64,000 bases of DNA from positions 62,001-126,000 of the forward strand of contig JAAFGX010000001.1 of the NCBI GenBank assembly GCA_010365115.1. Reading direction: 5' to 3'. Both the position numbers and the translations under genes were made by a program. The notes beneath the pieces are model-generated. The model had not been told where the DNA came from. It did no database searches and worked only from the letters and a program-made list of their open reading frames with translations. The DNA comes from Paludibacter sp. GTDB taxonomy: Bacteria; Bacteroidota; Bacteroidia; Bacteroidales; Paludibacteraceae. Positions 43,332 through 62,998 of this stretch are shown here, piece after piece; the first letter of the stretch is position 1, and every line of letters starts with the position of its first letter.

Positions 43332-44741
43332 TTATTTATTTTCAATAATTAGAACCCAATCGCACCCATCACCTTTCGAAGGCGGCACTGCTTCATATAT
43401 TAAATTGTTGGTTGAAATAGGGGTTTTTTCAGAATAGCTACCATCGCGTGGATTATACCAACTAAGACTTAAATCATTGCCTTTAACTTTGCTTAACGAG
43501 ACATAGAATTTTTCGCCCATAGGAGTATAGGCCAAAATTGTAGATTCATCTTTTGCACATAGTGCTGTTACATAGTTATCGCTAATATCCGTGTTATAAA
43601 GAATCGCAGTTTTGTCGGGCTGCAAATTATTAATTCCGAATTTTTCAATTAATTTACGCAGATGTCCCATGTCTTCTGCACCAGGACTATAGATTGCCTT
43701 TTGCCACGAAAATTTTACTGCGATTGGGGCAAATCGACCTTTGTCCCAAAAACACCATATACTTCCATTTCCATAAGTATGCCCGCAAGCACCTGAAAAA
43801 ACGGAACCATAAGCAGCCCTACGGACATCATAATCGTTATAATAACCGTAAGATGTTAAAGAATCGGGCATTTCGTAAGGATTTTTCTTATATGCTTCGT
43901 CAAGTTTCATTTGCCCAAATTTTACAGGAATATCTTCATACCGGCATTCTCCATCCAAACATGGCTTTGCTGGGTTGAGCATATAGTTATTTGTTGTGTA
44001 TAAATAATTTGGCGCTCCACGTTCATCATGACCACTTTGAGTCATGTTAAAATCCAGCCATTTATCATTATGAAAAAAGCTCGAAGACGAAATACTTCCG
44101 CTTGGATGGTAAGTTAACAGATGCTTTCCTGCGTCACCTTCACTAATCCCCTTGGCCATGTTTCGAATTAATTTATAATGCTCCTCGGTTGTGGGATTGC
44201 GGTCGCCACCTAATACCCAAATGATATTCCATTGGTTTTTATATCGGTTGCCGATATATTTTCCATAAATCATGGCATTTTCAGATGTGAATATTTCCTT
44301 CTCAACGCCCCATATTCTACTCCATTTGTCTCCCCAGGCAGGAAGCATTGCGATAAATATTCCCAAACTGGCGGCCTTTTTCACCACATAATCCACATGT
44401 TTGAAATATGCTTCGTTCGGTTTTTCAGGATTTTTGTCTATCAAAGACAAATCTCCATTTCTGTTGGGCTCTGTCAAGCCAAATAATTCGGCAAGTGCAA
44501 CAGCCTGAATAACATTAAACCCTTGTTTCGAAAGTGTTTACAAATAAAAATCGGTCTCCTTATCGTCTAATCGATGAAACAATTCCCATGCGGTATCGCC
44601 CATCCAGAAAAAGGGTGAACCATCGGAATATTCAAGTAAATGCCCGTTAGTTGAAACTTTTAACCCTTTTGCGGGATTTTTGAATTGAGCAGTTGCGTTT
44701 TGCATTAAAACACAAAATAAAAGGATTACTATGTATCTCAT
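43332..44741 (-). pseudogene. GH140-type (DUF4038) glycoside hydrolase with internal stop
   Basis: Start ATG 44741 ([14 protein letters not shown], signal peptide ending TAQ). The barrel begins [26 protein letters not shown]. At 44538-44540 a TAA interrupts DFYL-stop-TLSKQGFNVIQ, where a Lys codon is expected. The same frame then runs on uninterrupted to 43332 with LGGDRNP and DGECRYED (the conserved acidic residues of this family) and a C-terminal beta domain. GH140 enzymes release apiose from rhamnogalacturonan II; related DUF4038 proteins have other targets. Without readthrough the product is a 67-residue fragment. Confidence 0.85.
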
Positions 44742-44763: not shown

Positions 44764-46403
44764 TTATTGTTGAATACAGATTTTCGTTCTATGAATAACT
44801 CCATTTTCATTACGAGCCTCAACAATATAGAAACCGTTTGAAAGCGTTAAATTTACAGGCAATTTATCGTAACCTTTTGATTGATATGCAATTTTTCCTG
44901 ACATATCAATTACGCTGACAGTAAAATTACCTTCAGATTCAATTGTAAATAAACATTACTTGGAATAGGATAAATTTTGAAATTGTCAGCTATGTTATTA
45001 TTTAATCCAGAAGGAATTTGCGACCGCAACGCCACTATCTCCATACTTGTCACCGAGATAGTGGCTTTTCCGTTTATCATAACTATTGGCTCTGAGGTAG
45101 TTATGAATTGTTCACCACTCCGAATACGCGAGACTGTTAGACTAAGCAACGGAACATTTGCAAGTTCAGGTATATTTAGCGTTACAACTATGGTTTTTTC
45201 ATTGGCTGAATAATAGTTTAAAAACCTGTGCTCAGCATTCAAACCAGTTAGATTAACAATACCAATACCAAAACTCCCATCCAGATTTTTGGTTGTAGCC
45301 GAAATAATATCAGGTTCTTTCAGATATTTCCATTGCATATCAGAACTATACAAATAGGGTGTGCTGGTTGAGATTCTAAAAACTGAACCAACATCAAAAA
45401 TCTCATTCAACGCTTTGAAAACATAAAATCGACCCTGAAATATCGGATTTGAAGGAGTACCATCTTGAATAAATTGCCCTGATGACCAATGAGTAAAATG
45501 CGTTGCACCATGGTTTACGTCCGACAGATATTGTGCAGCTGAAATTGCTGGAAGCATCCAATTGGCATTGTTGTTCCCGGCATCGTCAGTAGCCGCCAAC
45601 GAAACCCACGATTCTTTGCCTGACGCCAAAGTGATATTTTGCATATAGGTACTGATTCCTAAACCATAGTCCTGCATACTAAAACCCTTTAGCGCCGCCA
45701 TAGCCGCTGGACTATTATTTATAGCGGTATAATACAAACTATCGTCACCTAATTTACAGTCGTAAGCCGCAACATGTGCTGCATCGATATGGTTTTTTGG
45801 AAAGAACTCGACAGTACTTGGTCCGATAATTCCTATATCCTTAAGTCCGTTACTATCAAAAAGTGTTCGTGCTGTTGTAATAGCATTAATCACATCCGAT
45901 GGCTCCATACGACAATTGGCGAATTGGCGAGTATTGGTTTTGTTTCGAATATCAAAATGAGTTACTTTATATCCGGCGTCCACCAAAGACTTAATTCTTG
46001 AAAAGTAATAAGCAGCTCTACCAAAAGCATTTGTACACGGATTACTAACGCCGTCATTTTCATTTAAGCCACCAGTAATAACTACGAATTTTACACCTGC
46101 ATCAACCATATAAGGAATCAGTTTATTGCTGAAATACTTTGATTTTAAATCATTTTCGGGCCATGGACGTACAATCGTAAATTTACTTTCAGTAATAAAT
46201 TTCGACATAAAATATCGCTTATCAGATTCGCTGGAATTTATCCATAAATCCCAATCACCATAATTAAGCGTATTAAAACCAGTCCCTTGAAAGGTTTGAG
46301 CTGGTTTTGATCCGACAGTTATAGTAGTCTGGGAATAAGTAGTTTGCCTATGAAAAATAAGTAAAAAGAGTATAGCTTTTAACAATTTGAATTTACTTTT
46401 CAT
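44764..46403 (-). pseudogene. GH30-like secreted protein with altered catalytic motif and frameshifted sorting domain
   Basis: Signal peptide (residues 1-25), then a GH30-like barrel and beta domain to about residue 465. Where the paralogues at 59435-62998 have NEP with the acid/base Glu, this protein has FDIRNKTN (Lys155, codon AAA, one change from GAA). The nucleophile segment WMTEA is WVSLAA. The main frame stops at 44910 after NFKIYPIPSNVYLQ, but the neighbouring frame continues IESEGNFTVSVIDMSGK to [11 protein letters not shown] and a stop at 44764. That is a complete T9SS sorting domain, displaced by one base near 44945-44955. Confidence 0.75.
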
Positions 46404-46464: not shown

Positions 46465-48549
46465 TTAATACTTCCAAACTGCAATGCCGGCAGGCTCAAG
46501 ATTTTCAGAACCAATAATAAGTTTTTTGATAGTTGTTGACGGTATTTTAGCTGATTCACTACTGTAGTTAATAGCCACGCCAAAACCATCGCGGTAATCA
46601 ACAACCATCCCTTGTGGTAATTCAACAAATGGAATTTCATTTTTTTGAAATAATAATTTCATAACATTTCGTTCCATAATGCCATTTTCGGTGCTTACAC
46701 CTATAAACGTGACTGTTCCTTTTCCTAATTTATGATTTGTCACCGCAGCTTTACCTTTATAAAACTGATCGGAATAACTAGCCCAAACTTCCGTTTCCGG
46801 CATTGGCGAAATTATATCTGCCCAATTGTTCCACTTAAATTTCTCGTTTTGCAACTCTACAGTCCCAAAAATATTTTCAGGTAAGTTATCATATTTATCA
46901 ACAGACCCTCCTATCAATTTACTAATTTTAGCCGCCCATTTTGCTTCATATAAATTACCATTGACATCCTTTTGTCCACTACGAACAGTAAGTACTAGAT
47001 GACCTCCATCTAAAACATATTTTTCCCATTCTTGGCATAATTTATCAGAAACGAGCTGATAACTCGGCGCCACAATAACTTTGTATTTAGAAAAATCGCT
47101 CACAGAATCCAGAAAATCAACAGGACAATTCAATGATTTTAAATTGGCATATAATTTATACTGATGTTGCAAATAACTCCATTTTATATTTTGAGCTTGA
47201 ATTTGTTGATCCCATAGATTATCAAGACTAAACATAAATCCTACTCTACGTAATTCATAATCTGATGGATTTTTTGCATCAGGTTCATATAGTTCACGTA
47301 CTTTTTTCATATCCTTAATAAACTGAATCCATTCCAGTCCACCTGGAGTATCGGTCACTCCATCCGGACCAACCATACCAGTATAGTATTGTTCTGCTCC
47401 ATTTAGAGGTTGTCGAAAACGATATGCACATGCAAATTTCAGATTTCCTACAAATGCATTCCATAAGTAAGCCGTAGGCGTACCAGGAAGTAGCAATGAA
47501 GTAGAATTTCCCCAATTTACTTGACCAGGCTGCAACTCCATAACACCTGTAATGCCGTTACACGATCTGAAATAATCATTTGCCCATGATATTTTCCACC
47601 AATCGCCCATACGAAAACCATTGGTTCCAGAACCAGTACTAAACCCTGAAACCGGATAAGCAGTGTACGAAATGAAATCTAAATCTTTATTACGCCATGG
47701 ATCAACCGGATCGTGTTCATACATAAAATTAGTAGTAACAAACTGGCTTTTGTCAACATACTTTTTTAGAATTACATTTTGCATTGAAACAAAACTGGCA
47801 CATTCATCAGCAGAAAACCTTTTAAAATCGAGTATGGAATGTGGGCTTGCTGGGCTGCTAATAAGACGCAAAGGATTAGGTAATTCTATTTGATTGAAAT
47901 TATTGTACATTCCACTCCAAAATGTGCCACCCCATGTTTTGTTTAATTTATCGATTGAGCCGTATTTGTTTTTAAGCCAAACTCGAAAATTCTTTTCTAC
48001 CGAAGGACCATAATCAATCACTCCATAGTGCGATGGTTCATTATCAATTTGCCAACCCCAAATACGCCTATCGTTTCCATAATGTTTTGCCATTTCAAGT
48101 ACAATTTTAGATACTAATTGTCGGTATTTTGGACTTGACCAAGAGCATTGCTGTCTTGTTCCATGCGATGCTTTTACGCCATTATCTTTCACCAAAAGCA
48201 CTTCGGGATATTTTTGTGTTAACCAAGCCGGTGGCGTAGGTGATGGTGTGCACATAATAACCTTTAAACCATGTTTGTGAGCTAACTCCAGAGCTGCATC
48301 AAGCCATTTGAAGTCGTACTTTCCTTCAGTAGGTTCGAGCATTGCCCAACTAAATTCTGCAAAATGTGTAAACTCGTAGCCACGTGCTGCAATATTTGCC
48401 AAATCTCTATTCCATTGTGTTGGAGACCAATTTTCAGGATAGTAATACACACCTGTTTCCATTAGTTTTTCTTTTGGGAAAAACTCCTGTGATTTTATAT
48501 CGTAGGCACTGATTATTAGAATCAGAATCATGCAATAAATAGATTTCAT
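46465..48549 (-). CDS. Beta-galactosidase, GH42
   Basis: 694 aa. Removes terminal beta-linked galactose. Signal peptide (residues 1-20, cleaved around IKSQ). TIM barrel with acid/base Glu171 in WGWQIDNEPSHYG and nucleophile Glu338 in GVMELQPGQVNWG. A beta-galactosidase trimerisation-like domain (about 430-620) and a small C-terminal domain follow. Length and domain order match family norms. It lies between the GH30-like pseudogene and the GH29-GH16 fusion, all on one strand. Confidence 0.92.
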   Translation of the reverse strand: MKSIYCMILILIISAYDIKSQEFFPKEKLMETGVYYYPENWSPTQWNRDLANIAARGYEFTHFAEFSWAMLEPTEGKYDFKWLDAALELAHKHGLKVIMCTPSPTPPAWLTQKYPEVLLVKDNGVKASHGTRQQCSWSSPKYRQLVSKIVLEMAKHYGNDRRIWGWQIDNEPSHYGVIDYGPSVEKNFRVWLKNKYGSIDKLNKTWGGTFWSGMYNNFNQIELPNPLRLISSPASPHSILDFKRFSADECASFVSMQNVILKKYVDKSQFVTTNFMYEHDPVDPWRNKDLDFISYTAYPVSGFSTGSGTNGFRMGDWWKISWANDYFRSCNGITGVMELQPGQVNWGNSTSLLLPGTPTAYLWNAFVGNLKFACAYRFRQPLNGAEQYYTGMVGPDGVTDTPGGLEWIQFIKDMKKVRELYEPDAKNPSDYELRRVGFMFSLDNLWDQQIQAQNIKWSYLQHQYKLYANLKSLNCPVDFLDSVSDFSKYKVIVAPSYQLVSDKLCQEWEKYVLDGGHLVLTVRSGQKDVNGNLYEAKWAAKISKLIGGSVDKYDNLPENIFGTVELQNEKFKWNNWADIISPMPETEVWASYSDQFYKGKAAVTNHKLGKGTVTFIGVSTENGIMERNVMKLLFQKNEIPFVELPQGMVVDYRDGFGVAINYSSESAKIPSTTIKKLIIGSENLEPAGIAVWKY

Positions 48550-48624: not shown

Positions 48625-50748
48625 TTAGTCGAGCGAATACATTCTCACATAATCCACTTTATATTCCATAGGGAAGATTTTGTCATCAATACCTTTCTGA
48701 CCACCCCAAGAACCCCCAATTGCAAGGTTAATGAGTAAAAATTGTGGAGAATCAAAAGGCCATTCGCCGACTCCCTCGTTTTTCCGATTACATGTAAAAT
48801 AAAGTTTGTCATCGAAAAAGAAATCCATGCGATCCTTGTACCAATCTACAGCATAAATATGAAAACCTGCAGATGGATTTTCAACATTAAAAGTTCCACC
48901 ACGTGGATTTCCTTTGGTCCAGTTATAATCACGTGTGTGAACATTGGCATGGATTTTATTCGGATCAAAACCGACAAACTCCATGATATCTATTTCACCA
49001 CAGGCTGGCCATTTTCCGTTAGAATTACTAAATTCTGTTCCCAATGTCCAGATTGCAGGCCAAACGCCAACACCATGTGGTATTTGAGCACGAACTTCGA
49101 TTCTACCTCTTGTAAACTCATGTTTTCCCTGTGTATTAAGACAGGCCGATGTATATTTACCTTCTCTGTAATTTTCTTTTCGAGCGGTAATAATTAAGTT
49201 TCCATTTTCAACACGTGCATTTTCTAATCTGTTTTTGGTGTAATATTGCTTTTCGTCATTCCGAACCATCCCCTCTTCACAAACCCATTTTGTTGAATCA
49301 GGCAAACCTTTATAATTAAACTCGTCGGACCATACTAATTTTTTCAATATTTTAGGAGACTTTATACCTACGCTATTTTTAATTTTATATACCCATGCAT
49401 ATTCACTTGGATTGTTATTAGGAGTAACAGCCGGTGGAGTGATGAAAAGTCTTCCACCAGAAACATTGTACTTTATTTTCTCATCTAGACCCAACATTTT
49501 TACTGATTCGCAACTATTCACTCCTTCAATAACGAGTTGTTTGCTATTCCAACCAGTGACAATTAAATATAAATCGTTACCCTTTGTAGTAAAAAATAAA
49601 TTGCTTTCATTATTAACTCTGGGTGCTTTATTCCAAATTCTCGTATCATAAATAGCCTCCCCGTTTATTTTAAGCCAATTACCAATATCGGTCAACCGTT
49701 GTTGCATTACTACTGGAATAAGCCCATCGGAAGTTGGCCCTATGTTAAGTAATAAATTTCCTCCAGTAGATACTTTTTTAATTAACATGTGGATGAGTTG
49801 TTCAGAAGTACTGTAATCTTCCAAGTTTTCCATTTTGTTATAACCAAATGAATTACCTATTCCACGACATTCTTCCCAAGGTCGTGAATGTGTTGTAAGT
49901 GATGTGCCTTGAAGCACTTCATCGTATTCGGTAGTATAAAATCCACCATGCTTGCTTCGGGTTTCTTTTCCCCAACGGTCGTTTACCACAATACTTTCTT
50001 TAACTTCAGACTCGTTATACAACCACGCCAGAAAATCGACACTCTTATATTTTTCAGATGGAAAATCCCATTCACCATCAGTCCACAACATATCAGGTTT
50101 ATAGCGGGTTACCAAATCTTTCATCTGAGGAATCATGTGTTCGTCGACATATTTTTCTGTATTACTATACATATAGGGATGATACCACTCCAACAATGAA
50201 TAATAAAAACCCATTCGCATACCTTTTCTTTTCACCTCTTTTGACAACTCACCACATAAATCGCGATGTGCACCAATATCGACCGAATTCCAATTTACAC
50301 TTTGTGCACTTGGCCAAAGTGTAAAACCATCGTGATGTTTTGAAGTAAGCACCACATATTTTGCTCCAGCATTTTTAAACAAATCAGCCCAAATATTCGG
50401 GTCGAAATTGGTTGCTTTGAATTGTGTTGCAAAGTCTTGATACTTGAAATTCTTGCCATATACACTATCATGGTATGCTTTAAAGTACTGATTTCCACTT
50501 TGAACTTTGTTCCAATAATGTTCAGCATATCGCTGCGCACCATCACCTTTAGGAACGTTTACCGGTGCCCAGGCAGGCACACTGTAAACACCCCAATGTA
50601 TAAAAATTCCAAATTTTGCATTTTGGAACCAACCAGGGATAGGCCTGCTATCAATTGACTCCCAAGTAGGCATGTACTTGTTTTGTGAACTGACTAAATT
50701 GTTATTTAACAACAAGGTAATAATCAATAAAAATAATGTTTTTCGCAT
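48625..50748 (-). CDS. GH29 alpha-L-fucosidase fused to GH16 endo-hydrolase
   Basis: 707 aa from ATG 50748 (MRKTLFLLIITLLL signal peptide; an upstream frame adds 17 codons without signal features). Residues 25-455 are a GH29 fucosidase: GIFIHWGVYSVPAW, SKHHDGFTLWPS, and DMLWTDGEWDFP with the predicted nucleophile Asp224. Residues about 468-707 are a GH16 barrel: LVWSDEFNYKGLPD, KYTSACLNTQGKHEFTRGRI, and the active-site motif GEIDIMEFVG with Glu585, Asp587 and Glu590. The linker (about 455-467) is short. GH16 of this type cuts beta-1,3-glucans or beta-galactans. The combination should debranch fucose and cut the backbone of one polymer (inference). Confidence 0.9.
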   Translation of the reverse strand: MRKTLFLLIITLLLNNNLVSSQNKYMPTWESIDSRPIPGWFQNAKFGIFIHWGVYSVPAWAPVNVPKGDGAQRYAEHYWNKVQSGNQYFKAYHDSVYGKNFKYQDFATQFKATNFDPNIWADLFKNAGAKYVVLTSKHHDGFTLWPSAQSVNWNSVDIGAHRDLCGELSKEVKRKGMRMGFYYSLLEWYHPYMYSNTEKYVDEHMIPQMKDLVTRYKPDMLWTDGEWDFPSEKYKSVDFLAWLYNESEVKESIVVNDRWGKETRSKHGGFYTTEYDEVLQGTSLTTHSRPWEECRGIGNSFGYNKMENLEDYSTSEQLIHMLIKKVSTGGNLLLNIGPTSDGLIPVVMQQRLTDIGNWLKINGEAIYDTRIWNKAPRVNNESNLFFTTKGNDLYLIVTGWNSKQLVIEGVNSCESVKMLGLDEKIKYNVSGGRLFITPPAVTPNNNPSEYAWVYKIKNSVGIKSPKILKKLVWSDEFNYKGLPDSTKWVCEEGMVRNDEKQYYTKNRLENARVENGNLIITARKENYREGKYTSACLNTQGKHEFTRGRIEVRAQIPHGVGVWPAIWTLGTEFSNSNGKWPACGEIDIMEFVGFDPNKIHANVHTRDYNWTKGNPRGGTFNVENPSAGFHIYAVDWYKDRMDFFFDDKLYFTCNRKNEGVGEWPFDSPQFLLINLAIGGSWGGQKGIDDKIFPMEYKVDYVRMYSLD

Positions 50749-50932: not shown

Positions 50933-51336
50933 TTACATTTTTACCACAAAAGCAAAGCCACCGTTTTCTTGCATGGTGATTTCTAAAGGTTTGGTTTCAA
51001 TTATTTTACAATTAATTATTCCCAAACGATTCAAGTCGTTCTTCAAATCGGTATAAACATGAATATTACCGCCTTTTATATTTGGCAACTTCAATGAAAC
51101 TTTTCGGGCTTTACCTGCGTTGATTCCGGCAATAAACCAGGTGTTCCCTTTTCTACGGGCCATACAACAGTATTCACCAGGGTAGCCAGCAAGAAGACGG
51201 GTTTCGTCCCATGTCGAAGTTAGTTGGGTTAAAATGGTTTTGCCACCGAATTCAGCAAGGCTTCAGGCGTGTCGGAAATTCCTTGCCAGCCCGACTCGAA
51301 GATTACTGACAGTGCCAATTCATGTGCCATGGTGGT
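50933..51336 (-). pseudogene. GH97 C-terminal remnant with frameshift
   Basis: Two frames together give a GH97-like C-terminus. The first (from about 51330) reads AHELALSVIFESGWQGISD, then a stop. The second, shifted by one or two bases near 51250, reads TILTQLTSTWDETRLLAGYP, then ARRKGNTWFIAGINAG, and ends IETKPLEITMQENGGFAFVV. The matching region in intact GH97 enzymes is the end of a protein of about 650 aa; the catalytic barrel is missing. It lies between the fusion fucosidase and the simple GH29 gene. Confidence 0.8.
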
Positions 51337-51420: not shown

Positions 51421-52779
51421 TTATTTTTTGGTGTCCGAAAGTTTGAATTTTACCACCGTATCAATTTCATCATCCAACTGATAAGTACCATTTGATGAAG
51501 GTCCCAAATTGAAAAACACATCGTTTTCGTCGATGTATGACCTTTTACCATTCCAGTATGTACCGATAAACATCTCGCGATCATCACTCAACATTTTTCC
51601 ATTGCAAATTTTCCCTTTCATACCAGGCATATAGTATTGACCCATATTTGAATCAGTTATGTGTGCAAAAAGGGTATCGCCTTTCATCGTAAATCTTCCC
51701 CATTCGGGTTTTGAAAGAGGTGCAGAACCACAACCATATATACTTTCACTATTTATGTCCATCCATTCACCTACTTTAGACAAAACATCGAGCGATTTTT
51801 TAGGAATTCTTCCTTTGGCATCGGGACCAACATTGAGTAGTAGATTCCCATTTTTGCTCACAACATTTACAAGGGCTCTAATCACATCTTTGTCAGTTTT
51901 GTAATGATTGTCAGCACTATAACCCCAATCATTATTTAAAGTGATACAGGCTTCCCAAGGCACATTACGCCCCAATTGATCTAGAATTGGATGCGCAGGT
52001 ATTATTTGTTCTGGGCCTTCAAAGTCACCAGCATACTCTTCTGGTTTTGCCAATTCAATATTTCCTCCTAAACGATTATCTAAAATTATTTCGGGTTGTA
52101 ATTTCTTCACCATTCTTACCAATTCAGTCGCTTTCCATTTCTCTCCAGAGTATTCGGCCCATGAATAATCAAACCACATTACATCAATTTTTCCATAGTT
52201 GGTAAGCAATTCACTCACCTGATTTTGCATATAAGTGGTGTAATTATCCCAATTGAACTTCTTTTTTGAATATTCTTTATTACCATTCATGGGATGATTT
52301 CCAACGTTTGGATAATCAGGATGATGCCAGTCGATAAGCGAATAATAAAATCCCACTTTAAGTCCTTCGGCACGAAACGCATCAACAAATTCACGTATCA
52401 AATCTCTGCCAGCTGGCGAATTCACTGATTTATAATCGGTATATTTGCTATCGAACATACAAAAACCATCGTGGTGTTTTGCAGTCATAATGGCATATTT
52501 CATTCCCGCTTTTTTAGCAGCACGAGCCCATTCGCGAGGATTGTATTCGGTGGGATTAAATGCATCGACATATTTTTGATAGTTTTCTGCCGAAATATGT
52601 TCATTCGTTTGTACCCATTCACCACGTGCAGGTATAGCATACACACCCCAATGGATAAACATTCCGAACCTTGCATCGCGAAACCATTTAGTACGATCTT
52701 CACGTTGTTGATACACATCCTGTGAAAACAATTGAAAGCTAAACATGATACTAATTGCGAATAAAATTATTTTTTTCAT
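51421..52779 (-). CDS. Alpha-L-fucosidase, GH29
   Basis: 452 aa. Removes alpha-linked fucose. Signal peptide (residues 1-20, ending LFSQ). Barrel motifs: MFIHWGVYAIPARGEW, TAKHHDGFCMFDS, and the nucleophile Asp204 in DVMWFDYSW. The C-terminal beta-sandwich is shorter than in the fusion protein. Its start overlaps the end of the GH31 gene by 4 nt, so the two are translationally coupled and probably used together. Confidence 0.92.
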   Translation of the reverse strand: MKKIILFAISIMFSFQLFSQDVYQQREDRTKWFRDARFGMFIHWGVYAIPARGEWVQTNEHISAENYQKYVDAFNPTEYNPREWARAAKKAGMKYAIMTAKHHDGFCMFDSKYTDYKSVNSPAGRDLIREFVDAFRAEGLKVGFYYSLIDWHHPDYPNVGNHPMNGNKEYSKKKFNWDNYTTYMQNQVSELLTNYGKIDVMWFDYSWAEYSGEKWKATELVRMVKKLQPEIILDNRLGGNIELAKPEEYAGDFEGPEQIIPAHPILDQLGRNVPWEACITLNNDWGYSADNHYKTDKDVIRALVNVVSKNGNLLLNVGPDAKGRIPKKSLDVLSKVGEWMDINSESIYGCGSAPLSKPEWGRFTMKGDTLFAHITDSNMGQYYMPGMKGKICNGKMLSDDREMFIGTYWNGKRSYIDENDVFFNLGPSSNGTYQLDDEIDTVVKFKLSDTKK

Positions 52780-55175
52780 AATATTACTATTGTTTGTTTT
52801 GTACTTGTATTATCTTGATTTACTGATATTTTCATTATTCCATCTTCAAATTTCCACAGGTTTGTTTTAGCTCCATTCACGCTTATTTTTTTTGGCTTTT
52901 CCGCTAATACCACTTCAAAAATATAAGTGCGCGACGATGGCTTGCCCTTATAATTGCCCCTTGTGGGATGTATTGTTATTAGTGTACTTTTGCCTGTTTG
53001 TTCGCATTCAAATAGTGTTGATGCCCTTTTTCCGGTTTCGTATTCAAACGATACTCCATCGTCCTCGTATAAAGTATATTCGCATTTATTTTCCGGAAAT
53101 ACTTTTAACAATAGTGTGTCGAGCGTTTTTTCCCCAATATATTGTGTGGGCAACTGAAAAGGAGTTATCGAACCTGATTTTACAAAAATAAGTCCACCTC
53201 TGTTATCGGGTATCTTAGCATGAACGACATTGCCGCCTTTCATTTTTTGACCATTCCAAAAGTTTACCCAGTTACCTTCGGGCAGATAAATAGAATCGCT
53301 GAATACATTCACCAATAAATTTTGTCCAAACATATATTGATAGATGATATTGTCCACCTTTCGGTCGTTGGGAAACATCAGCGGCATGGCACGTAAAATA
53401 GGCATACCAGTTTCACTGCCTTCGATAGCAGCAGAGTAAATGTAGGGAAAAAGCGCATTTCGAAGCTGTGCATAATAACGGAAAGTTTCTTTTTCGATAG
53501 GTTTCATATACCATGGTTGATGCATGCTGTACCAACTATTAATTTGAACCCACGGCAGCAAAAAACCAAGGTGCAATCCGGCTTTGTTATCTTCAACACC
53601 TTCTAACACATCGGCCGAAGTATTTAAAAAACCACTTAATCCCAGGTTTAATTGGTCAAATAAAGCATTTTTCCCGCCACCATTATCGCCACTTGTCGAA
53701 GCTGACCAATGCTGCGCACCCGCATATCCACCGCAATAATGGTGAAATGAGCGTATTCCTTTGTGTTCCCTAAAGGTATTATACATTTGTTTTGGCAATA
53801 ATACCTGCGATAAATTATGCATGGTTTTGTCGGTTTGCCCATTAAAATAAACTCTATCGGGATGCTCATCGAGCGTACGTCCTGGGTCTAACTTAAATCC
53901 ATCCACACCGTTATCCATAAATTTTGTTAAATGGTCGAACCAATGTTCCTGTCCCGAGGGTTTTTTGCCTTCTTTTATTGCAATATGATCTTCCTCTTCG
54001 ATGGACAAATCGTGATCGATACAAAGCCACAATGCTAACTTAAAGCCTAAATTATGAAGTTTTGAAACAAAAAGAGTATTGCCTTCTTCTTTGGGATAAT
54101 ACGGTTCGTTCCACGAGGGTTCGCCCATAAATGAATTTTGATTCCAACGTTTTTTGGTTGAATAATCGTAGTATTTAGCCATCCACTGAGGCTCAATCCA
54201 AAATATATCAACAGGTATTTTTTCTTCGCGAAAACGTACCGCATCATCCAGCACGTCGAATTGATTTTGCATGGTATTACCGCCAAAAGCCAATCCATAA
54301 GCCCACTTAGGTAGCAAGTATGGTTTTCCGGTAATTGTAATAAACGATTTTAAAACACTTGGCATTGAATTACCAAACATTAAATAAAAATCAACAGATC
54401 CATCAGTGTTATATATCAGTAGTTTATCATTATCGAAGCGACCCACATCAAAATAATTTTTGGCTGTCGTGTTGTTGAAAATTCCCCAACCATCTGAACT
54501 CATTAAAAATGGCGATGGAATCTCGGTCTTTTGATAGGTAGCCCACATACGCAATGCTGTACCTCTGTGTTGTATGTTCGTACGACTTGTATTCCCACCA
54601 CCATAGAACCTTTCATCAGCTTTTAGCGAAATGCTATATACACTACTATTTTTAGTTTCGCCAACTTCTTCAAATTCAGTCTGTTTACCCGTGTAATCAA
54701 CATCTCCTATGATTCCACCACCTCTCTTGGCTTTGCCAAAATATTTATCCAATGATATCCCTAAGTTTTTACTAACTTCGTTAGTACCATCAAGAAGATT
54801 AATCTTATTTAATTGAATTTTATTGTTTTTATCTTTTACAGTTAACTCACCCGTTTTCTTATTTATTATTAATGAATAAGTTCCACTTTGTACTTCTACA
54901 CTCGTACTTGAACTAATGGTTTTTGGACTGATAATCTCCCAATCGGTTTTAAGAATACCATACCGTTCCATTAGACTTTCGCTAAATTCATTTTTGGATT
55001 CTAGGCGGACACGAAAAATATTGACATCGCAAACCTGAATTTGCAGGTAATTTCCATTATCAAGCTTTGTAACAATTTTTTGATTCGATGTTTGCGCCTG
55101 TGTCGAAACAATTACTGTCAAAAACATAACATTAAAAAAGAGCTGTTTGATAAATCGATTCATTATTTTAATCAT
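52776..55175 (-). CDS. GH31 family alpha-glycosidase
   Basis: 799 aa (795 if the ATG four codons in, MNRFIKQ, is used). GH31 enzymes release alpha-glucose or alpha-xylose, and some release alpha-galactose. Signal peptide ends TQAQ. Motifs in the 799-aa numbering: substrate region FWIEPQWMAKYYD (about 325-337), nucleophile Asp430 in DGFKLDPGRT, and acid/base Asp497 in STSGDNGG. The first motif differs from the classic alpha-glucosidase WxDM pattern, so the sugar specificity is open. It is coupled to the GH29 gene. Confidence 0.88.
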   Translation of the reverse strand: MIKIMNRFIKQLFFNVMFLTVIVSTQAQTSNQKIVTKLDNGNYLQIQVCDVNIFRVRLESKNEFSESLMERYGILKTDWEIISPKTISSSTSVEVQSGTYSLIINKKTGELTVKDKNNKIQLNKINLLDGTNEVSKNLGISLDKYFGKAKRGGGIIGDVDYTGKQTEFEEVGETKNSSVYSISLKADERFYGGGNTSRTNIQHRGTALRMWATYQKTEIPSPFLMSSDGWGIFNNTTAKNYFDVGRFDNDKLLIYNTDGSVDFYLMFGNSMPSVLKSFITITGKPYLLPKWAYGLAFGGNTMQNQFDVLDDAVRFREEKIPVDIFWIEPQWMAKYYDYSTKKRWNQNSFMGEPSWNEPYYPKEEGNTLFVSKLHNLGFKLALWLCIDHDLSIEEEDHIAIKEGKKPSGQEHWFDHLTKFMDNGVDGFKLDPGRTLDEHPDRVYFNGQTDKTMHNLSQVLLPKQMYNTFREHKGIRSFHHYCGGYAGAQHWSASTSGDNGGGKNALFDQLNLGLSGFLNTSADVLEGVEDNKAGLHLGFLLPWVQINSWYSMHQPWYMKPIEKETFRYYAQLRNALFPYIYSAAIEGSETGMPILRAMPLMFPNDRKVDNIIYQYMFGQNLLVNVFSDSIYLPEGNWVNFWNGQKMKGGNVVHAKIPDNRGGLIFVKSGSITPFQLPTQYIGEKTLDTLLLKVFPENKCEYTLYEDDGVSFEYETGKRASTLFECEQTGKSTLITIHPTRGNYKGKPSSRTYIFEVVLAEKPKKISVNGAKTNLWKFEDGIMKISVNQDNTSTKQTIVIL

Positions 55176-55217: not shown

Positions 55218-57413
55218 TCATTCCACAGGTTTGTTTCCCATCACAAAAAGCAATGAACCACCTTTCATTATATCTTTGTGCAAAATTGTAGTTTTCGAAT
55301 ATACGTTCCCATTCAAAAATATACGTTGAACATATTTATTCGCTTCAGATAAGTTTTTGGCCTCAATCACAAAAGACTTTGAGTTAGGTAGACTTAAGCT
55401 GATTTTAGGCAATTGTGGAGCACCAAAAACATATTCACCACCAACTGGATTCACTGGATAGAAACCCATAGCGGTAAAAATATACCACGCCGACATTTGA
55501 CCACAATCATCGTTGCCACATAAACCATCAGGTTTGTTTAGATAAAATTTGTTGTTAATTTCCCTAACTAATTCTTGTGTTCGTGCAGGTTTACCTAACA
55601 AAGTGAAAATGTAAGGGACATGGTGACTTGGTTCGTTTCCATGTGCATATTGACCAATTAATCCGCTCACATCACCCGAAAAGCCGCTACTTTTTATTAC
55701 TGGTTCAAGCTTGAAAAGCGAATCTAATTTTTCCGTCATTAAATTTTTCCCACCAAACAAATTTGCCAATCCCACAATATCTTGCTGAACATGCCAAGTA
55801 TATTGCCATGCATTGCCTTCGGTGTAATCTCCACCAGCTGTTCCGGCATGTGAGAGCACCAAAACATCAAATGGATTGCGCCATTTTCCATTGGAATCCT
55901 TTCCACGCATCAAATTATTAGTGCTATCAAAAACATTTTTGTAGTTATTTGCTCTTTTTGCAAAAAATAAATAATCATCCGTTTTCCCAAGTGCTTTTGC
56001 CATTTGTGCAGCTGCAAAATCATCCATACAAGTTTCTAAAGTTCTCGATATAGATTCTTCTTTTATCAAATCAAAAGGATAATAACCATATTTATTGTAA
56101 ATTTCCCAATTCGATTTCTCGTATGATTTTGTCAGAGTCGATTTAATAGCTTCGTATAACTTTTCAGCATCGAAACCTCTAAATCCTTTGAGGTAAGCAT
56201 CTACAATTACTGGGATGGAGTGATTGCCTATCATACAGTTATTTTCCGTTCCCCAAAGTGTCCAAATGGGCAATACACCTACCGCATTGAAATGTGCAAA
56301 CATAGAATTAACCATGTCATCTACTTTTTCTGGTATTAGTATTGTATATAATGGATGAGCTGCCCTGTAAGTATCCCAAAGTGAGAATGTTGAATAATAA
56401 TTCTTTGAGGCAGAAGTTACAACTACATTGTCTGCACCCCGATATCTACCATCCGTATCTGCTATATTTGAGGGTTGCAAATACAAATGGTAAAGCGAAG
56501 TGTAAAAACTCACTTTTTGATCAATAGTTCCCTGTACTTCTACTCGTGATAGCAGTTTATTCCATTCGGCAAGTGCTTTTTGTCTGATTAAATTGAAATC
56601 CCAAGTAGGGTTTTCTGCTTTTAAATTATTTTTTGCACCATCAACACTCACTGTCGAAATTGCAATTTTTGTCAAGAGTTGTTCCCCCTTTTTTAAATCA
56701 AATTTCAGGATTAATCTTTTCGCTTTTTCACCTTTTAAAGCGGGTAATTCTCTAACAATCTGGTATGGTTTATTAAATTCTATGACATAAAACAAATTGC
56801 GGTTTACCCACACATTTACGTTGTGGCTACCTGAAATAATAGTATTACTTTCGAAACTTGTTTCGGCTGAAAGCACACGATTGTGAAGCTGAGATTCGTC
56901 CCACGACAAGCCACTTTGTAAATCGAGCAACAAATAAGCACCCGAATCTCTAAAAGTGTAACGATGCATTGCTGTATGGGCTGAAGCAGTAAGTTCAACC
57001 TTTGTTTTTGCATCGGTAAGATTTACAGTATAATAACCCGGAGTGGCTTTTTGAGATTTTTTATCGAAAGCACTTTTAAATATATTTCTATTACTATTGC
57101 CGCTAAAAGGAAAAATCAAAATATCGCCCAAATCCGGGCAACCAGTTCCGTTAAGGTGCGTCTGAGCAAATCCAATAATGGTAGAATCGACATAATTATA
57201 ACCTGAACAGTATCGCCAACCTACATTTTCAGTTTCGGGACTTGCTTGCACCAGCCCAAATGGCATTGCAGCACCTGGAAAAGTATGGCCATTATCGGCA
57301 TTACCAATAAAAGGATTAACATATAATGCCGGGCTTTTTTCATTAACTTTAGCTGAAAGAACAACTATAGTTAGTAAGCTGAATAATAAGGCATAAAATA
57401 ACTTTGCATTCAT
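55218..57413 (-). CDS. GH92 alpha-mannosidase
   Basis: 731 aa. Calcium-dependent exo-alpha-mannosidase family. Signal peptide (residues 1-21). N-terminal beta domain with NPFIGNADNGHTFPGAAMPFG, then the alpha/alpha barrel with FSLWDTYRAAHPL, GNEPSHHVPY and CGNDDCGQMSAWYIF, the conserved GH92 signatures. Linkage (1,2, 1,3 or 1,6) cannot be read from sequence alone. It lies 22 nt downstream of the GH39-like gene, so it is probably in the same operon. Confidence 0.92.
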   Translation of the reverse strand: MNAKLFYALLFSLLTIVVLSAKVNEKSPALYVNPFIGNADNGHTFPGAAMPFGLVQASPETENVGWRYCSGYNYVDSTIIGFAQTHLNGTGCPDLGDILIFPFSGNSNRNIFKSAFDKKSQKATPGYYTVNLTDAKTKVELTASAHTAMHRYTFRDSGAYLLLDLQSGLSWDESQLHNRVLSAETSFESNTIISGSHNVNVWVNRNLFYVIEFNKPYQIVRELPALKGEKAKRLILKFDLKKGEQLLTKIAISTVSVDGAKNNLKAENPTWDFNLIRQKALAEWNKLLSRVEVQGTIDQKVSFYTSLYHLYLQPSNIADTDGRYRGADNVVVTSASKNYYSTFSLWDTYRAAHPLYTILIPEKVDDMVNSMFAHFNAVGVLPIWTLWGTENNCMIGNHSIPVIVDAYLKGFRGFDAEKLYEAIKSTLTKSYEKSNWEIYNKYGYYPFDLIKEESISRTLETCMDDFAAAQMAKALGKTDDYLFFAKRANNYKNVFDSTNNLMRGKDSNGKWRNPFDVLVLSHAGTAGGDYTEGNAWQYTWHVQQDIVGLANLFGGKNLMTEKLDSLFKLEPVIKSSGFSGDVSGLIGQYAHGNEPSHHVPYIFTLLGKPARTQELVREINNKFYLNKPDGLCGNDDCGQMSAWYIFTAMGFYPVNPVGGEYVFGAPQLPKISLSLPNSKSFVIEAKNLSEANKYVQRIFLNGNVYSKTTILHKDIMKGGSLLFVMGNKPVE

Positions 57414-57434: not shown

Positions 57435-59255
57435 TCAATCAGGTAAAACAGCATATATAACTTCGCCACCGGCTTCAAGTATCCATTGACCTTTAATTTT
57501 ATCAGGTATTGGAATTTTTCTACCCAAATAGTTATAAATACAGATTGGTTTTTTAGGTAAAATAAAACGTGTTGTATAACCAGCTTCATCCTTCACTAAC
57601 TTTCCTGCACTTGTCCATAGCACCAATAAATTATCATTTTTACCCTTAAATTGTAGTGCGTAAGCTCCCGTATTTTGAGTTTTGATTCTTCCAAGCAATA
57701 AACGATTTTCAGTCAACAATTGAAGTGTACTTATAGCGTGGTATGATGGTCTTGGCTTCATGTCAAACCCAATAATTCCATAATTGTCTTGGTGATCGAC
57801 AGAATCACCTTTGCAGAAAAATTCGTACTTATAGGTATATGCAAAACCCACCATCCAGTTGGCAAGAATGGTACGCACATCCAAACGCGCTTGACAAAAT
57901 TGAGCAGAATCAGAAAGTCCGTTTCCGTATTTTGAACTAATTGCACCACATTCAGTAGACCATTCTTTTGGTACTTTTTTAAAGTATTTTTTTAGCAAAT
58001 GGCGAAGACAAATTAAATCTTCAGAAATACTTTCGGGACTCCCATCAACATAAGGATGAACACCGATACCATCTAAGCCCGTAAGCGATTTGTTTTCTCC
58101 AAGTGTATTGATAAATCCCCAATCAATGCCAGCTGTTCCAGCCGAAATAAGGGTAACTTTTGGATTTGCACTTTTTATCGAATCAATAGAAACTCGTAAT
58201 AATTTTGAGAAATCAATAGCATCTGGCTTTGGAAGCCAGAACCAAGGATGATTTGGTTCGTTCCAGATTTCAAAATCAACATCCTTTCCCTTGAAATGCC
58301 TGACAGTAGTAGCACAATAGTGTGCAAATGCTGTTATTTGTTCGGTCGAAACTAAGCCATCCGAAGTATTTTTTGCATAAAGCTTGTTTCCATAACACAA
58401 AATGAACAAGGTTCTCAGTTTATTATTTTCAGCGACCTTTACAATACTGTCAAAATAACTGTAATTGAACTGACCCTTTTTTGTTTCAACAGATCCCCAT
58501 GCTAGATCCCCCCTTATACATTTAAAACCTAACGATGTAATTAAATCTGGTTTATTTAAGTCGCCATGTTCAAAATGAGTACACACTCCGGTTTTATTCC
58601 ACAATGCTGTTGAACTGATTGTATCTTTTTCATTGGTTATTAAATGCAATGTCTCATCAAAATCGGTTATCCATTCAATATTGTCGAACCACATTTCGCC
58701 TTTTGGTTGCGGTATCCATTTGTCTCTACCAAACATGTTACTGACACGTGGTTCGATGGCAACTGTAATTTTTTTTAGTCCAGTTTGTATGGTAGGTGTA
58801 AACACGCCACCTGTTATAGAATCCGGCGTTGTGCTGAATGCCAAGGTGATATTAAACCAATTCATCTCATCTAAATCTGAAAGCGATCGCGATAATCTAT
58901 GTCTGAAACATCTCCCTGTTGAGTCGGTCAGAAATATCCAAGCTGTAGAAGTGGCTGAACATTTAATTTGTAACCGCAACCCTTTTGCATTTTTCGGGAC
59001 AATCTGAATACTTTTTTGTGCTCCCACCCAACTACCGCCATTACTTATATCGTAATTTAATTTAGCTACAGTATTATTTCCAATTTTCTCAAAACCGAAT
59101 GAGCCTGTTGCACCTGAATCTTTGACCAAAGACCAACCGTATGGATTAGTATCATTTTCAAAATTGTCAACGAAAAGTGCTGTTGATTTGCTTACACATG
59201 AAAATGACAATATGGCAATTAAAAGCAGAGCAGAAATATGGGATTTTTTTTTCAT
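57435..59255 (-). CDS. Lipoprotein glycoside hydrolase, GH39/GH5-like, with N-terminal binding domain
   Basis: 606 aa. Lipobox ILSFSC with Cys20, so an outer-membrane lipoprotein. Residues about 25-200 are a jelly-roll carbohydrate-binding-like domain (DNFENDTNPYGWSLV to GEMWFDNIEWI). Residues about 215-530 are a TIM barrel with acid/base Glu333 in FEIWNEPNHPW and nucleophile Glu435 in EWSTECGA, then a C-terminal beta part. It falls in clan A near GH39 and GH5, but the family is not certain and neither is the substrate. Confidence 0.8.
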   Translation of the reverse strand: MKKKSHISALLLIAILSFSCVSKSTALFVDNFENDTNPYGWSLVKDSGATGSFGFEKIGNNTVAKLNYDISNGGSWVGAQKSIQIVPKNAKGLRLQIKCSATSTAWIFLTDSTGRCFRHRLSRSLSDLDEMNWFNITLAFSTTPDSITGGVFTPTIQTGLKKITVAIEPRVSNMFGRDKWIPQPKGEMWFDNIEWITDFDETLHLITNEKDTISSTALWNKTGVCTHFEHGDLNKPDLITSLGFKCIRGDLAWGSVETKKGQFNYSYFDSIVKVAENNKLRTLFILCYGNKLYAKNTSDGLVSTEQITAFAHYCATTVRHFKGKDVDFEIWNEPNHPWFWLPKPDAIDFSKLLRVSIDSIKSANPKVTLISAGTAGIDWGFINTLGENKSLTGLDGIGVHPYVDGSPESISEDLICLRHLLKKYFKKVPKEWSTECGAISSKYGNGLSDSAQFCQARLDVRTILANWMVGFAYTYKYEFFCKGDSVDHQDNYGIIGFDMKPRPSYHAISTLQLLTENRLLLGRIKTQNTGAYALQFKGKNDNLLVLWTSAGKLVKDEAGYTTRFILPKKPICIYNYLGRKIPIPDKIKGQWILEAGGEVIYAVLPD

Positions 59256-59434: not shown

Positions 59435-60712
59435 TTATTTAATTGTGGTTAATGTTACTAATTCTTTAGGATTGACGGTGATTGAAATACGACCCTTTTT
59501 CATAATAAGTTTGCCTTCATTCACAATTTTCTTAGTTACATTGGTTCTTAAAACTGTAAATTTCAAATTAGCGTATTTTGCCAATTCAGGTACATTAAAT
59601 GTAAACTTATAGGGTAGTGGGTTAATATCATGAATACCAGTACCATTTACAACGGATAAACTCCAACTTCCATCGGCATTTTGAGCAACTGCCGCATTGT
59701 AGGGTGATTTACTTTTATAGGTTTGGTTCATTTCGTTATTTTTATTTGCCAACACCTTTCGGAAAATGGCACCTTTGTGAAAGGTAGTAAACAACTGCTT
59801 CATGTAGTAGTATTTACAGAATACAATTATTTTATTTGATGGAATATCATACACCACGAATTTTGTCATTGAATCTTCGGTGTCACTGGAGTATGCAATG
59901 AAATAAATCCAATTGGTTACTCCATGGTTCATGTCGTTCAAAAACCGGGAAGCAATGCTGGCAGCCTCATTATCATTGGTTTCACTATCTAAGCCGTTAC
60001 TACTTGCCTCAGTCATCCAATAGTTTTTTTTACTGTCAAACGACAATTGTGCCCAATTTTCTAATGCCGACATACCGTATGAATGGGAAGCTATATAATC
60101 AACTTTATTCCAAGCCGTGGGATATTTATCTTTTACGTCAATCATAATATTGTACCAATGGTCATCGCAATTGGAAGATTCAGGAGCAACAATCTTGACC
60201 GATTGATTTCCTGACGCATTTAACGATTCACGCATTTTCACTAATCCAGATGCAATATCTTCAGCCGTCCATGTGTCAGGCTCATTGGCTAATCCTGTTA
60301 CATTGATCTGAAATCCAGCTTCATTTTTCAGTCTGTTTGTTAATTTTGAAATATCATCAACATACGTATTCATATCTTTTGGTGGGTTTTTTCCACCTGG
60401 AGCAAGTAATAAGGTGTTGACGCCGCCTTGTTTTGCAAATTCAATTACTTTACTATCCACATAATGTCTCCAGAATTCGGCATCATTCCATTTCCACATT
60501 CGAAGGGTGGTCAAATTCATGTCCTTAAATACCATATCGGACATTATTTTCCGTGTTGATTCTGGAATATTATCAACATGGTCGGTTATACTCGCACCAT
60601 AGCCTTCTAGGGTTTGTCGTTTTTCAGAACTAACATTAAGAATTATCTCTGTTTGAGCAAAAACAGAATAACTTATTAGCAAAAATAAAATAAGTGATTT
60701 ATATTTTTTCAT
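59435..60712 (-). CDS. GH30 family glycoside hydrolase, catalytic domain only
   Basis: 425 aa from ATG 60712 (MKKYKSLILFLLIS; the upstream frame adds ten codons). Signal peptide ends VFAQ. Barrel with LEGYGASITDHV, acid/base Glu144 in GLANEPDTW and nucleophile Glu235 in NYWMTEAS. C-terminal beta domain ends VTLTTIK, with no sorting signal. It is very similar along its length to the first 420 residues of the next gene upstream (60773-62998), so this is a tandem duplication. GH30 members cut beta-1,6-glucan, xylan or beta-1,6-galactan; which is unknown here. Confidence 0.88.
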   Translation of the reverse strand: MKKYKSLILFLLISYSVFAQTEIILNVSSEKRQTLEGYGASITDHVDNIPESTRKIMSDMVFKDMNLTTLRMWKWNDAEFWRHYVDSKVIEFAKQGGVNTLLLAPGGKNPPKDMNTYVDDISKLTNRLKNEAGFQINVTGLANEPDTWTAEDIASGLVKMRESLNASGNQSVKIVAPESSNCDDHWYNIMIDVKDKYPTAWNKVDYIASHSYGMSALENWAQLSFDSKKNYWMTEASSNGLDSETNDNEAASIASRFLNDMNHGVTNWIYFIAYSSDTEDSMTKFVVYDIPSNKIIVFCKYYYMKQLFTTFHKGAIFRKVLANKNNEMNQTYKSKSPYNAAVAQNADGSWSLSVVNGTGIHDINPLPYKFTFNVPELAKYANLKFTVLRTNVTKKIVNEGKLIMKKGRISITVNPKELVTLTTIK

Positions 60713-60729
60713 TTTGGAGTTATAGTTTG

Positions 60730-60768
60730 AAAAATCTACCAAGAATGAAATTCCAGGCAGATTTTTTT
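60730..60768 (-). terminator. Hairpin between the two GH30 genes
   Basis: AAAAATCTACC and GGCAGATTTTTTT pair with one mismatch across a 15-nt loop, and on the minus strand a T run follows. It lies 4 nt after the stop of the upstream gene, so the second GH30 gene may be read at a lower level or from its own promoter. Confidence 0.65.
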
Positions 60769-60772
60769 AGTT

Positions 60773-62998
60773 TTATTTTACTATCAATTTCAAGGTTTTA
60801 GATCCTTTATCGGTAGAAATGGAAACTTGGTAGATGCCACTTATAAAATTTGAACGGTTGATAGTAATCGATTCATTATTCAAATCTTGAGAATTCAATT
60901 TCCTGAGTAAAATGTCTTTTCCATTGATGTCAATAATTCGGATTTGAACATTTTGCTCATTTTTAAAATCCCCGAGTTTTACGGTTACATTTCCGTTTAT
61001 TATTGGATTTGGGAAAACTTCAAATTCTAAATCAGTAGGTGTAATTAATGCCGTTTTGGGATCAGTCCAAAATTGCAATTCTGAGACATTACCAAAACCT
61101 CCCACAGGCGATAGGTAGCGCACATATCGGAATGCTGTATTATCAGTGTTAATGAAAATATTTTGAATGTTTTCTGTCAATAATTTGTTTACAGTCAATA
61201 AATCGGTTGGATTACTAAAATCGGGAGTATTTGAAGCTTGGATTTTGCCACCTATCATTCTGTCGGCAAAGCCAATTCGGGGTGACATTTTTACTGTAGA
61301 AATGGTACGTTCAGCTCCAAAATCAACTCCAACCCAAGCATTATCTGCCATCGTTGAATTAAAATACGTAGTAAAATCAGCATCGAATACTTTACTTTCA
61401 TCGTTAGCTTCAGCACTTGCACCACTACTACTCCACGTACCGTTTAGTTTGTTTTCTAAACGCACGTTTACAGTACAAGTTGCCACTTTCGAACCCTCAG
61501 CCGTTGTAGCAGTTATAGTAGCAGTTCCTGGCACCATGGCAGTGATTACACCCGAATCGTCCACCTTTACGAAACCACTGTTGCTCGACTTCCAAATTAT
61601 TCCTTTAATAGTAGCATTCGCAGGCGTAATCGTTGGTGTTAAAGTCAAGGAAGCTCTAAGTCCCAAATTAATTAACTGAGGATCTATGCTGAAACTGGTA
61701 ATTGGAATATGAGGCTGAATATTGCCAGTAGTAAGCGTAACCACTTCTTTTGCATTAATTACAATGGATAATTTACCATTTGTCATAGTAACAATCCCAT
61801 CATCAACCATTTTTCGTGTCAAATTAGTTCTAAGCACCTTAAAATCTATAGCTACTGCAGAAGCTAATTCGGGCATATTGAAGGTAAATTTGTAGGGTGT
61901 GGCAGAAAAACCTTGAATACCAGTACCGTTTATAACAGCTATGCTCCATGTGCCGTCGGTATTTTGAGCCACTGCTGCATTGTAAGGGGATTTGTTGTTA
62001 TATGTTTGATCCATTTCGCCTGTACCGTTTGCCAATACTTTGCGAAACACAGAACCGCTTTTAAAAGTAGTATACACTTGTTTCATATAAAAATACTTAC
62101 ATGGCATAAATATTTTACCAGTTACTGCGTCATACGATAATAGTTTTGTCATCGTATTACCCATATCGCTTGAGTAGGCAATAAAATAAACCCAATTAAC
62201 TACACCATGATTCATATCATTTATAAACCGAGCAGCTAAGCTGGTTGCCTCATTGTCATTAGTTTCCGAATCCACTCCATCATTTGCCGATTCGGTCATC
62301 CAATAATCTTTGTTATTACTAAAAGAGAATTGTGCCCATTTTTCGGTGGCGCACATATTATAGGAGTGCGAAGCAATATAATCTAATTTGCCCCACGCTG
62401 TTGGGTTTGTGTTTTTAACCCCAACCATGATGTTATACCAATGATCATCGCAATTTGACGATTCTGGACCTACAATTTTAACCATTGACAATCCATTTGC
62501 ATCTAATGCCGTACGAATTTTCGAAATACCATCGCCTAAGTGTGCACTTGTCCAATTGTCTGGTTCATTAGCCACACCTGTTACATTAATCAAAAAACCG
62601 GTGGCATCTTTCAGGTTTTTAATACGAAGAGCAATACCATTTGCATAAGCCGTCATATCAGCTGGTGCATTGATGCCATTTCCAGGTCCTAATAACAAAT
62701 TGGTAACACCATCTTTGGTTGCAAATTCTATAGCTCTTGTGGCTACATATTGATTATCGAATGTATTACCGCCCCAGTTCCACATTCGTAGCGTGTTCAT
62801 ATTGAAATCTTTGAATGTCATGGCTGACATTACTTTTCTTGCTCCTTCGGGAATCAGATCAATGTGATCGGTTAAGCTTGCACCTGAACCCTTAAATTCC
62901 TGACGTTTAGTAATGCCTACATTCATTATCACCTCGGTTTGTGCCGATAAACAATAAGCAAAAAGTAGAAAAATAAATAGTGAGTTAATTTTTTTCAT
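60773..62998 (-). CDS. GH30 hydrolase with Big_2, discoidin and T9SS sorting domains
   Basis: 741 aa. Signal peptide ends LSAQ. GH30 barrel with FKGSGASLTDHI, acid/base Glu145 in GVANEPDNW and nucleophile Glu236 in DYWMTESAND. Then a bacterial Ig-like (Big_2) domain at about 430-510 (WKSSNSGFVKVDDSGVITAM). A F5/8-type C discoidin domain follows at about 515-650, with FDADFTTYFNSTMADNAW and FRYVRYLSPVGGFGNVSEL. A C-terminal T9SS domain spans about 660-741 (EVFPNPIINGNVTVK to LKLIVK). Expected on the cell surface or secreted, with the discoidin part binding glycan. Confidence 0.92.
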   Translation of the reverse strand: MKKINSLFIFLLFAYCLSAQTEVIMNVGITKRQEFKGSGASLTDHIDLIPEGARKVMSAMTFKDFNMNTLRMWNWGGNTFDNQYVATRAIEFATKDGVTNLLLGPGNGINAPADMTAYANGIALRIKNLKDATGFLINVTGVANEPDNWTSAHLGDGISKIRTALDANGLSMVKIVGPESSNCDDHWYNIMVGVKNTNPTAWGKLDYIASHSYNMCATEKWAQFSFSNNKDYWMTESANDGVDSETNDNEATSLAARFINDMNHGVVNWVYFIAYSSDMGNTMTKLLSYDAVTGKIFMPCKYFYMKQVYTTFKSGSVFRKVLANGTGEMDQTYNNKSPYNAAVAQNTDGTWSIAVINGTGIQGFSATPYKFTFNMPELASAVAIDFKVLRTNLTRKMVDDGIVTMTNGKLSIVINAKEVVTLTTGNIQPHIPITSFSIDPQLINLGLRASLTLTPTITPANATIKGIIWKSSNSGFVKVDDSGVITAMVPGTATITATTAEGSKVATCTVNVRLENKLNGTWSSSGASAEANDESKVFDADFTTYFNSTMADNAWVGVDFGAERTISTVKMSPRIGFADRMIGGKIQASNTPDFSNPTDLLTVNKLLTENIQNIFINTDNTAFRYVRYLSPVGGFGNVSELQFWTDPKTALITPTDLEFEVFPNPIINGNVTVKLGDFKNEQNVQIRIIDINGKDILLRKLNSQDLNNESITINRSNFISGIYQVSISTDKGSKTLKLIVK

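Follow-up and report, generated by a model that had tools for sequence, protein, structure and literature searches.

The fusion gene and its locus

The window, that is, the whole 64,000-nucleotide stretch of Paludibacter sp. DNA analysed here, contains on its minus strand one open reading frame (ORF) in which a GH29 domain is followed by a GH16 domain. The gene and its parts are, in window coordinates:

48625..50748, minus: fused GH29-GH16 protein, 707 aa (ORF translation and Pfam)
50683..50748, minus: putative type I leader peptide, residues 1-22 (hydrophobic stretch, judged by eye)
49657..50709, minus: GH29 catalytic domain, residues 14-364 (Pfam), with nucleophile D224 and likely acid/base E274
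49378..49608, minus: Fucosidase_C domain, residues 381-457 (Pfam)
49342..49377, minus: linker, residues 458-469 (Pfam and similarity to solved structures)
48628..49341, minus: GH16 laminarinase-type domain, residues 470-707, with E585, D587 and E590

The minus-strand translation of 48625-50748 has 707 residues, with a single terminal stop and none internal. An alternative TTG start lies 17 codons further upstream in the same frame, and by eye the start at MRKT appears to give the better leader. Three Pfam domains follow one another along the chain: Alpha_L_fucos at residues 14-364 (4e-122), Fucosidase_C at 381-457 (4e-8) and Glyco_hydro_16 at 500-701 (2e-25). Because these E-values are so low, there is no room for chance matches. 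Three GH16 models of NCBIfam also match the protein, all below cut-off. Frame and Pfam agree with the original prediction of a single 707-residue ORF holding a complete GH29 and a complete GH16 domain; the Fucosidase_C domain was absent from that description. In the best rows, the similarity of the GH16 part to solved enzymes begins at residues 469-471, which places the linker at about 458-469, just after the end of Fucosidase_C at 457, and so bears out the 12-residue length given for it.

The neighbouring features, from the downstream to the upstream side of the fusion, are:

43335..44537 (open frame), minus: apiosidase-like protein with Collagen_bind_2 (Pfam, scanned as 43332-44477)
46465..48549, minus: GH42 beta-galactosidase, 694 aa (Pfam)
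50942..51333, minus: decayed C-terminal remnant of a GH97, in two frames, between the fusion and the second GH29
51421..52779, minus: second GH29 fucosidase, 452 aa (Pfam)
52776..55175, minus: GH31, 799 aa (Pfam; NCBIfam matches below cut-off)
55218..57413, minus: GH92, 731 aa (Pfam)
57435..59255, minus: distant GH39/PslG-like protein (Pfam GH39 at 25.3 bits, just below the cut-off of 26)
60773..62998, minus: distant GH59-like protein with Big_2, F5/8C and a T9SS sorting tail (GH59 at 19.7 bits, below the cut-off of 27)

These genes belong to a run of 21 minus-strand ORFs of at least 200 aa, which extends from 42.1 kb to the window-equivalent position 82.3 kb, beyond the window (one ORF split at the border between the extracted loci L070 and L071 is counted as one). 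The far end of the run, at window-equivalent 74.5-82.3 kb, encodes SusD, SusC and a sigma factor. In L071, Pfam finds the SusD_RagB, TonB plug and sigma-70 domains, with glycoside hydrolases between these and the fusion, and two genes at the same end resemble anti-sigma factors, as judged by eye from their position. From the SusC/SusD end towards the fusion there are GH97, GH39/PslG-like, GH92, GH31 and second GH29 proteins, as well as Big_2, F5/8C or CBM9 proteins, some of which carry T9SS tails. On the other side of the fusion come the GH42 and the apiosidase-like protein. All four neighbours named in the original prediction (GH42, GH31, GH92 and a second GH29) are thus confirmed by Pfam. 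Two further proteins of the locus, at 44910-46403 and 59435-60742, have no Pfam match and look by eye like distant glycosidases; the former (497 aa) has no match at E 0.1 among solved structures. Judged by its SusC/SusD pair, co-directional glycoside hydrolases and regulator, the fusion gene lies within a Bacteroidota polysaccharide-utilisation locus. The locus is of the heteroglycan type; its predicted enzymes would suit a polymer that bears galactose, fucose and further kinds of side group, without identifying that polymer.

The GH97 remnant falls in the 672 bp that precede the fusion gene and resembles a gene at L090:7373-9394, itself checked to be a GH97. The two matching stretches are 104 aa (36.5% identical) and 38 aa (34% identical) long. 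Its presence indicates that a GH97 gene has been lost here and that the locus has been rearranged. Where a GH97 adjoins the GH29 gene in relatives, it is mostly downstream (L090, L120, L121 and L144). An upstream GH97, the arrangement of the remnant beside the fusion, occurs only in L086 and, further off, in L085.

The fucosidase half

The GH29 domain is full-length, its match (4e-122) covering positions 3-345 of the 345 in the Pfam profile. D224, in the motif WTDG, aligns with chain position 224 of the Thermotoga fucosidase 1hl8, and E274 aligns with position 266, which we take to be the catalytic nucleophile and the acid/base of that enzyme, respectively. The assignment of the nucleophile to Asp224 therefore stands. 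Both residues are invariant in the 26 aligned GH29 sequences, and so is D276. Alignment A1, in which solo GH16 rows are misplaced on the GH29 half, served as a search query and for inspecting its GH29 rows.

Among solved chains, the best match is human alpha-L-fucosidase 7pls (FUCA1; 5e-115, 389 bits), followed by 1hl8 at 293 bits and chains of the 2wvv/4pee type at about 113 bits. We take 7pls and 1hl8 to be A-type enzymes and 2wvv/4pee to represent the B-type. With these labels, the GH29 half is by similarity of the A-type, because its scores against 7pls and 1hl8 lie far above those against 2wvv-type chains. Its predicted activity is that of an alpha-L-fucosidase, and it is 52-66% identical to orthologues without a GH16 part. 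In PMC11189522, the catalytic residues of GH29-A enzymes are described as less conserved, and the A-type enzymes tested are all active on pNP-fucose with variable linkage preference. The GH29 half alone consequently does not tell which linkage is cut.

The GH16 half

The Pfam match of the GH16 half (2e-25) spans positions 3-174 of the 175 in the profile, which rules out a truncated fragment. The predicted ExDxxE active site is present as E585-I-D587-I-M-E590. By sequence, the top solved match is the laminarinase 3iln (7e-71 to 6e-72), and 19 rows, most of which carry the name of a laminarinase or glucanase, precede the first O-glycanase, 6t2n (2e-40). When modelled alone from 14 sequences, the GH16 half gives a pLDDT of 87.8 and a pTM of 0.89, and the best fold matches of this model are again 3iln (TM 0.92, 47% identity), then 7ww4/7wwc and SCLam. 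The first mucin O-glycanase among the fold matches is 6t2n, at rank 28. In the full-length model, residues 462-707 are below pLDDT 50; the alignment used for it had no GH16 rows. An agarase, porphyranase or carrageenase type was considered and set aside, since laminarinases and glucanases rank first by both sequence and fold.

Members of GH16 subfamily 3 are characterised mostly on beta-1,3/4-glucans and have a three-tryptophan motif in finger 3, according to PMC7419316. In 14 aligned GH16 sequences, W563 and W567 are invariant and W580 is nearly so (W99, W103 and W116 of alignment A3), and these residues may well be that motif. Sequence and model together suggest that the GH16 half is laminarinase-like, closest to the beta-1,3(4)-glucanases, and such an activity is predicted for it. 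A stand-alone GH16 protein of 267 aa, whose start looks like a leader, is 67% identical to the GH16 half. The closest GH16 in the genome samples comes from outside the family, and the genes around it do not, by eye, resemble a glycan locus, which counts against the reading favoured below. Laminarinase-like GH16 genes also occur in loci from IMG/VR (L172-L183), on contigs filed as viral.

Distribution of the fusion

The full protein was used as a query over 300 genomes of the family, 393 of the order, 395 of the class, 395 of the phylum and 48 of the genus. The window's own genome is a member of every set, and there is partial overlap between the sets; the genus was taken in full and the others are drawn samples. 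Up to two candidates per genome were scored from the rows listed for order, class and phylum, and up to three for the family. Among the matches listed for these four samples, only the window's own genome has one spanning residues 1-707. No full-length match occurs in the 47 other genomes of the genus, 25 of which reach 90% completeness or more with no more than 5% contamination. Four of the genus genomes (G144, G194, G136 and G192) hold a close relative of the GH29 half, 53-64% identical to it and encoded by an open frame of 461-484 aa.

The named relatives, the best 80 of 154, give 80 GH29 orthologues, and none of these has a GH16 in the same ORF. In 79 of them the alignment stops at query residues 456-460 and the open frame goes on for another 1-6 residues; for the 80th (L153), the contig ends first. 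Across all 221 loci, a GH16 and a GH29 share one ORF only in L001, L003, L010 and L164, each of which is the window's own gene. Among plasmids, tblastn gave 548 matching records, none with one place covering at least 80% of the query. A contig scan with the fusion protein alone gave five stretches that fitted the pattern, none of which was confirmed. In the open-access literature, the titles and abstract openings seen contain no description of a GH29-GH16 pairing. Within the genomes, loci and parts of open-access papers searched, there is then no second case, in keeping with the view that the pairing is not already common and characterised.

Several candidates for further fusions were rejected. 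L089 (an Arcicella MAG) and L150 (Hufsiella ginkgonis) give near full-length matches, but each has two separate ORFs, a GH16 gene immediately preceding the GH29 gene and sharing its strand. Seven of the long ORFs flagged in the genome scans (L072, L077 and L217-L221) have other partner domains: in L217 and L218 the GH29 is joined to PA14, and in L220 to CBM6 and fn3. L072:5377-7611 and L077:5458-7677 combine a calcineurin-like metallophosphatase (MetallophosN/C) with a C-terminal GH16; both genomes belong to the order, and one of them to the window's genus. In a Candidatus Symbiothrix MAG, a heparinase II/III-like domain precedes a GH29-A in one open frame (L119:300-3566).

Adjacent same-strand GH16 and GH29 genes are thus found in 2 of the 80 named relatives, in an order opposite to that of the fusion. 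Commoner companions near the GH29 gene are a second GH29 (8/80) and a GH97 (6/80, including two near-duplicates). These counts refer to the 80 named loci only, of which L120 and L121 share an identical GH29 stretch.

Origin and function of the fusion

The genome is one draft assembly of 207 contigs, probably metagenome-derived, with an estimated contamination of 7.2%. This single draft, with its contamination estimate, is one ground for suspecting an artefact, in which the contig would join GH29 and GH16 genes that are not adjacent, or a missed stop would merge two genes; an independent copy of the junction was also not found in the searched genomes. Codon usage adds a little to the suspicion, as the correlation with four neighbouring genes is 0.85 for the GH16 half against 0.93 for the GH29 half, the former being about half as long. 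GC content, which is similar in the two halves, speaks for a real fusion: it is 37.6% in 48625-49380 and 36.7% in 49381-50748, and third-position GC is 0.307 for GH29 and 0.297 for GH16. The reading frame also runs through the junction, which sits precisely between the domains, and the surrounding 200 bp occur only once in the genome (the next match scores 32.8 bits, against 361), while the 149-kb contig carries housekeeping genes, as recognised by eye, together with one continuous same-strand locus. The other two frames contain many stops at the junction, and no room is left for a GH16 leader. A missed stop alone would then yield a GH16 without an export signal, which, with the in-frame and single-copy junction, makes that variant unlikely. 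We regard an artefact of either kind as decidedly improbable, and the pairing of these two familiar enzyme families is probably real, new and narrowly distributed. A real fusion could nevertheless be neutral, having arisen when a rearrangement removed the stop of one gene and the leader of the other, so that the halves would have separate substrates and the tether no role. It is shared by no relative examined, the locus has been rearranged, with the GH97 remnant just upstream, and these domains occur in further fusions as well (heparinase II/III-GH29 in L119, metallophosphatase-GH16 in L072 and L077). On the other hand, the catalytic residues are kept in both halves and both suit a glycan-degradation locus. 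The adjacent genes of L089 and L150 give a weak hint of shared use, in an arrangement rarer than a second GH29 or a GH97. Neutrality is a possibility that we take seriously but doubt.

On balance we lean towards a genuine, narrowly distributed fusion of a GH29-A with a laminarinase-type GH16, exported, with both halves acting on a glycan imported by SusC/SusD. In this scheme the mature part of a laminarinase-type GH16 would have been attached in frame to the fucosidase, directly behind its C-terminal domain. The fucosidase's leader would direct export of the product, probably to the periplasm. In that compartment, the GH16 half would cut internal beta-1,3(4)-glucosidic or similar bonds of the imported oligosaccharides, and the GH29 half would take off terminal alpha-L-fucose, this being one step in the work of a large locus for heteroglycan breakdown. 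The protein had been described as secreted, and the leader peptide agrees with export; Pfam finds no T9SS tail on it, however, and no lipobox is visible by eye. Since the fusion has no T9SS tail, the periplasm is the simpler inference, and seems at least as likely a destination as the outside.

Enzymes fused in one chain often share one substrate, and the architecture had been said to imply one fucose-branched polymer built on a beta-linked backbone. That implication is not established, since GH29-A linkages vary and this type of GH16 acts mostly on beta-1,3(4)-glucans; that both halves serve one such polymer is plausible but unproven. A stronger version, that of a dedicated bifunctional depolymerase for an undescribed fucose-branched, beta-glucan-like heteropolysaccharide, in which fucose removal would unmask sites for the tethered endo-enzyme, seems unlikely to us. 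Fucose is also common on mucins. The GH16 half might then be a mucin-type O-glycanase and the protein act on fucosylated host glycans, which is compatible with a real fusion. The fold of the GH16 half does match those of 6t2n (TM 0.86) and 6t2r (TM 0.84), and PMC7419316 places O-glycanases within subfamily 3. The ranking by sequence, in which the 19 mostly laminarinase and glucanase rows outrank 6t2n, and the low place of 6t2n by fold make this reading the least credible of those considered.

If the halves do share a substrate, the fusion would point to an uncharacterised fucosylated polymer of the beta-glucan type in the habitat of this Paludibacter-like bacterium, and would be a ready tool to find it. 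If they do not, it would be a recent chance fusion, of use mainly as a warning not to deduce a substrate from the company two domains keep.

Comparison with known systems

Judged from sequence, each half belongs to an ordinary, well-known family, and the new part is the pairing, not found elsewhere in the searches made. With the GH29-A fucosidases (FUCA1 7pls, 1hl8 and the Bacteroidota orthologues), the fusion has in common the catalytic and C-terminal domains, the nucleophile and a candidate acid/base. The named orthologues stop after the C-terminal domain, apart from the one cut by its contig end, whereas the fusion continues with a GH16. With the laminarinases and beta-1,3(4)-glucanases 3iln, 7ww4/7wwc and SCLam (6xof), the GH16 half shares the fold, the motifs EIDIME and WPAIW...WP, and 44-48% identity in the fold alignment; unlike them, it is without a leader of its own and is fused behind a fucosidase. 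L089 and L150 resemble the fusion in having both families side by side on one strand, but as two genes with the GH16 first, and the GH16 of L150 is no more than a distant relative, scoring 127 bits where that of L089 scores 266. Finally, the heparinase II/III-GH29 and metallophosphatase-GH16 proteins, and the GH29 proteins with PA14 or with CBM6 and fn3, show that GH29 and GH16 domains also fuse with other partners.
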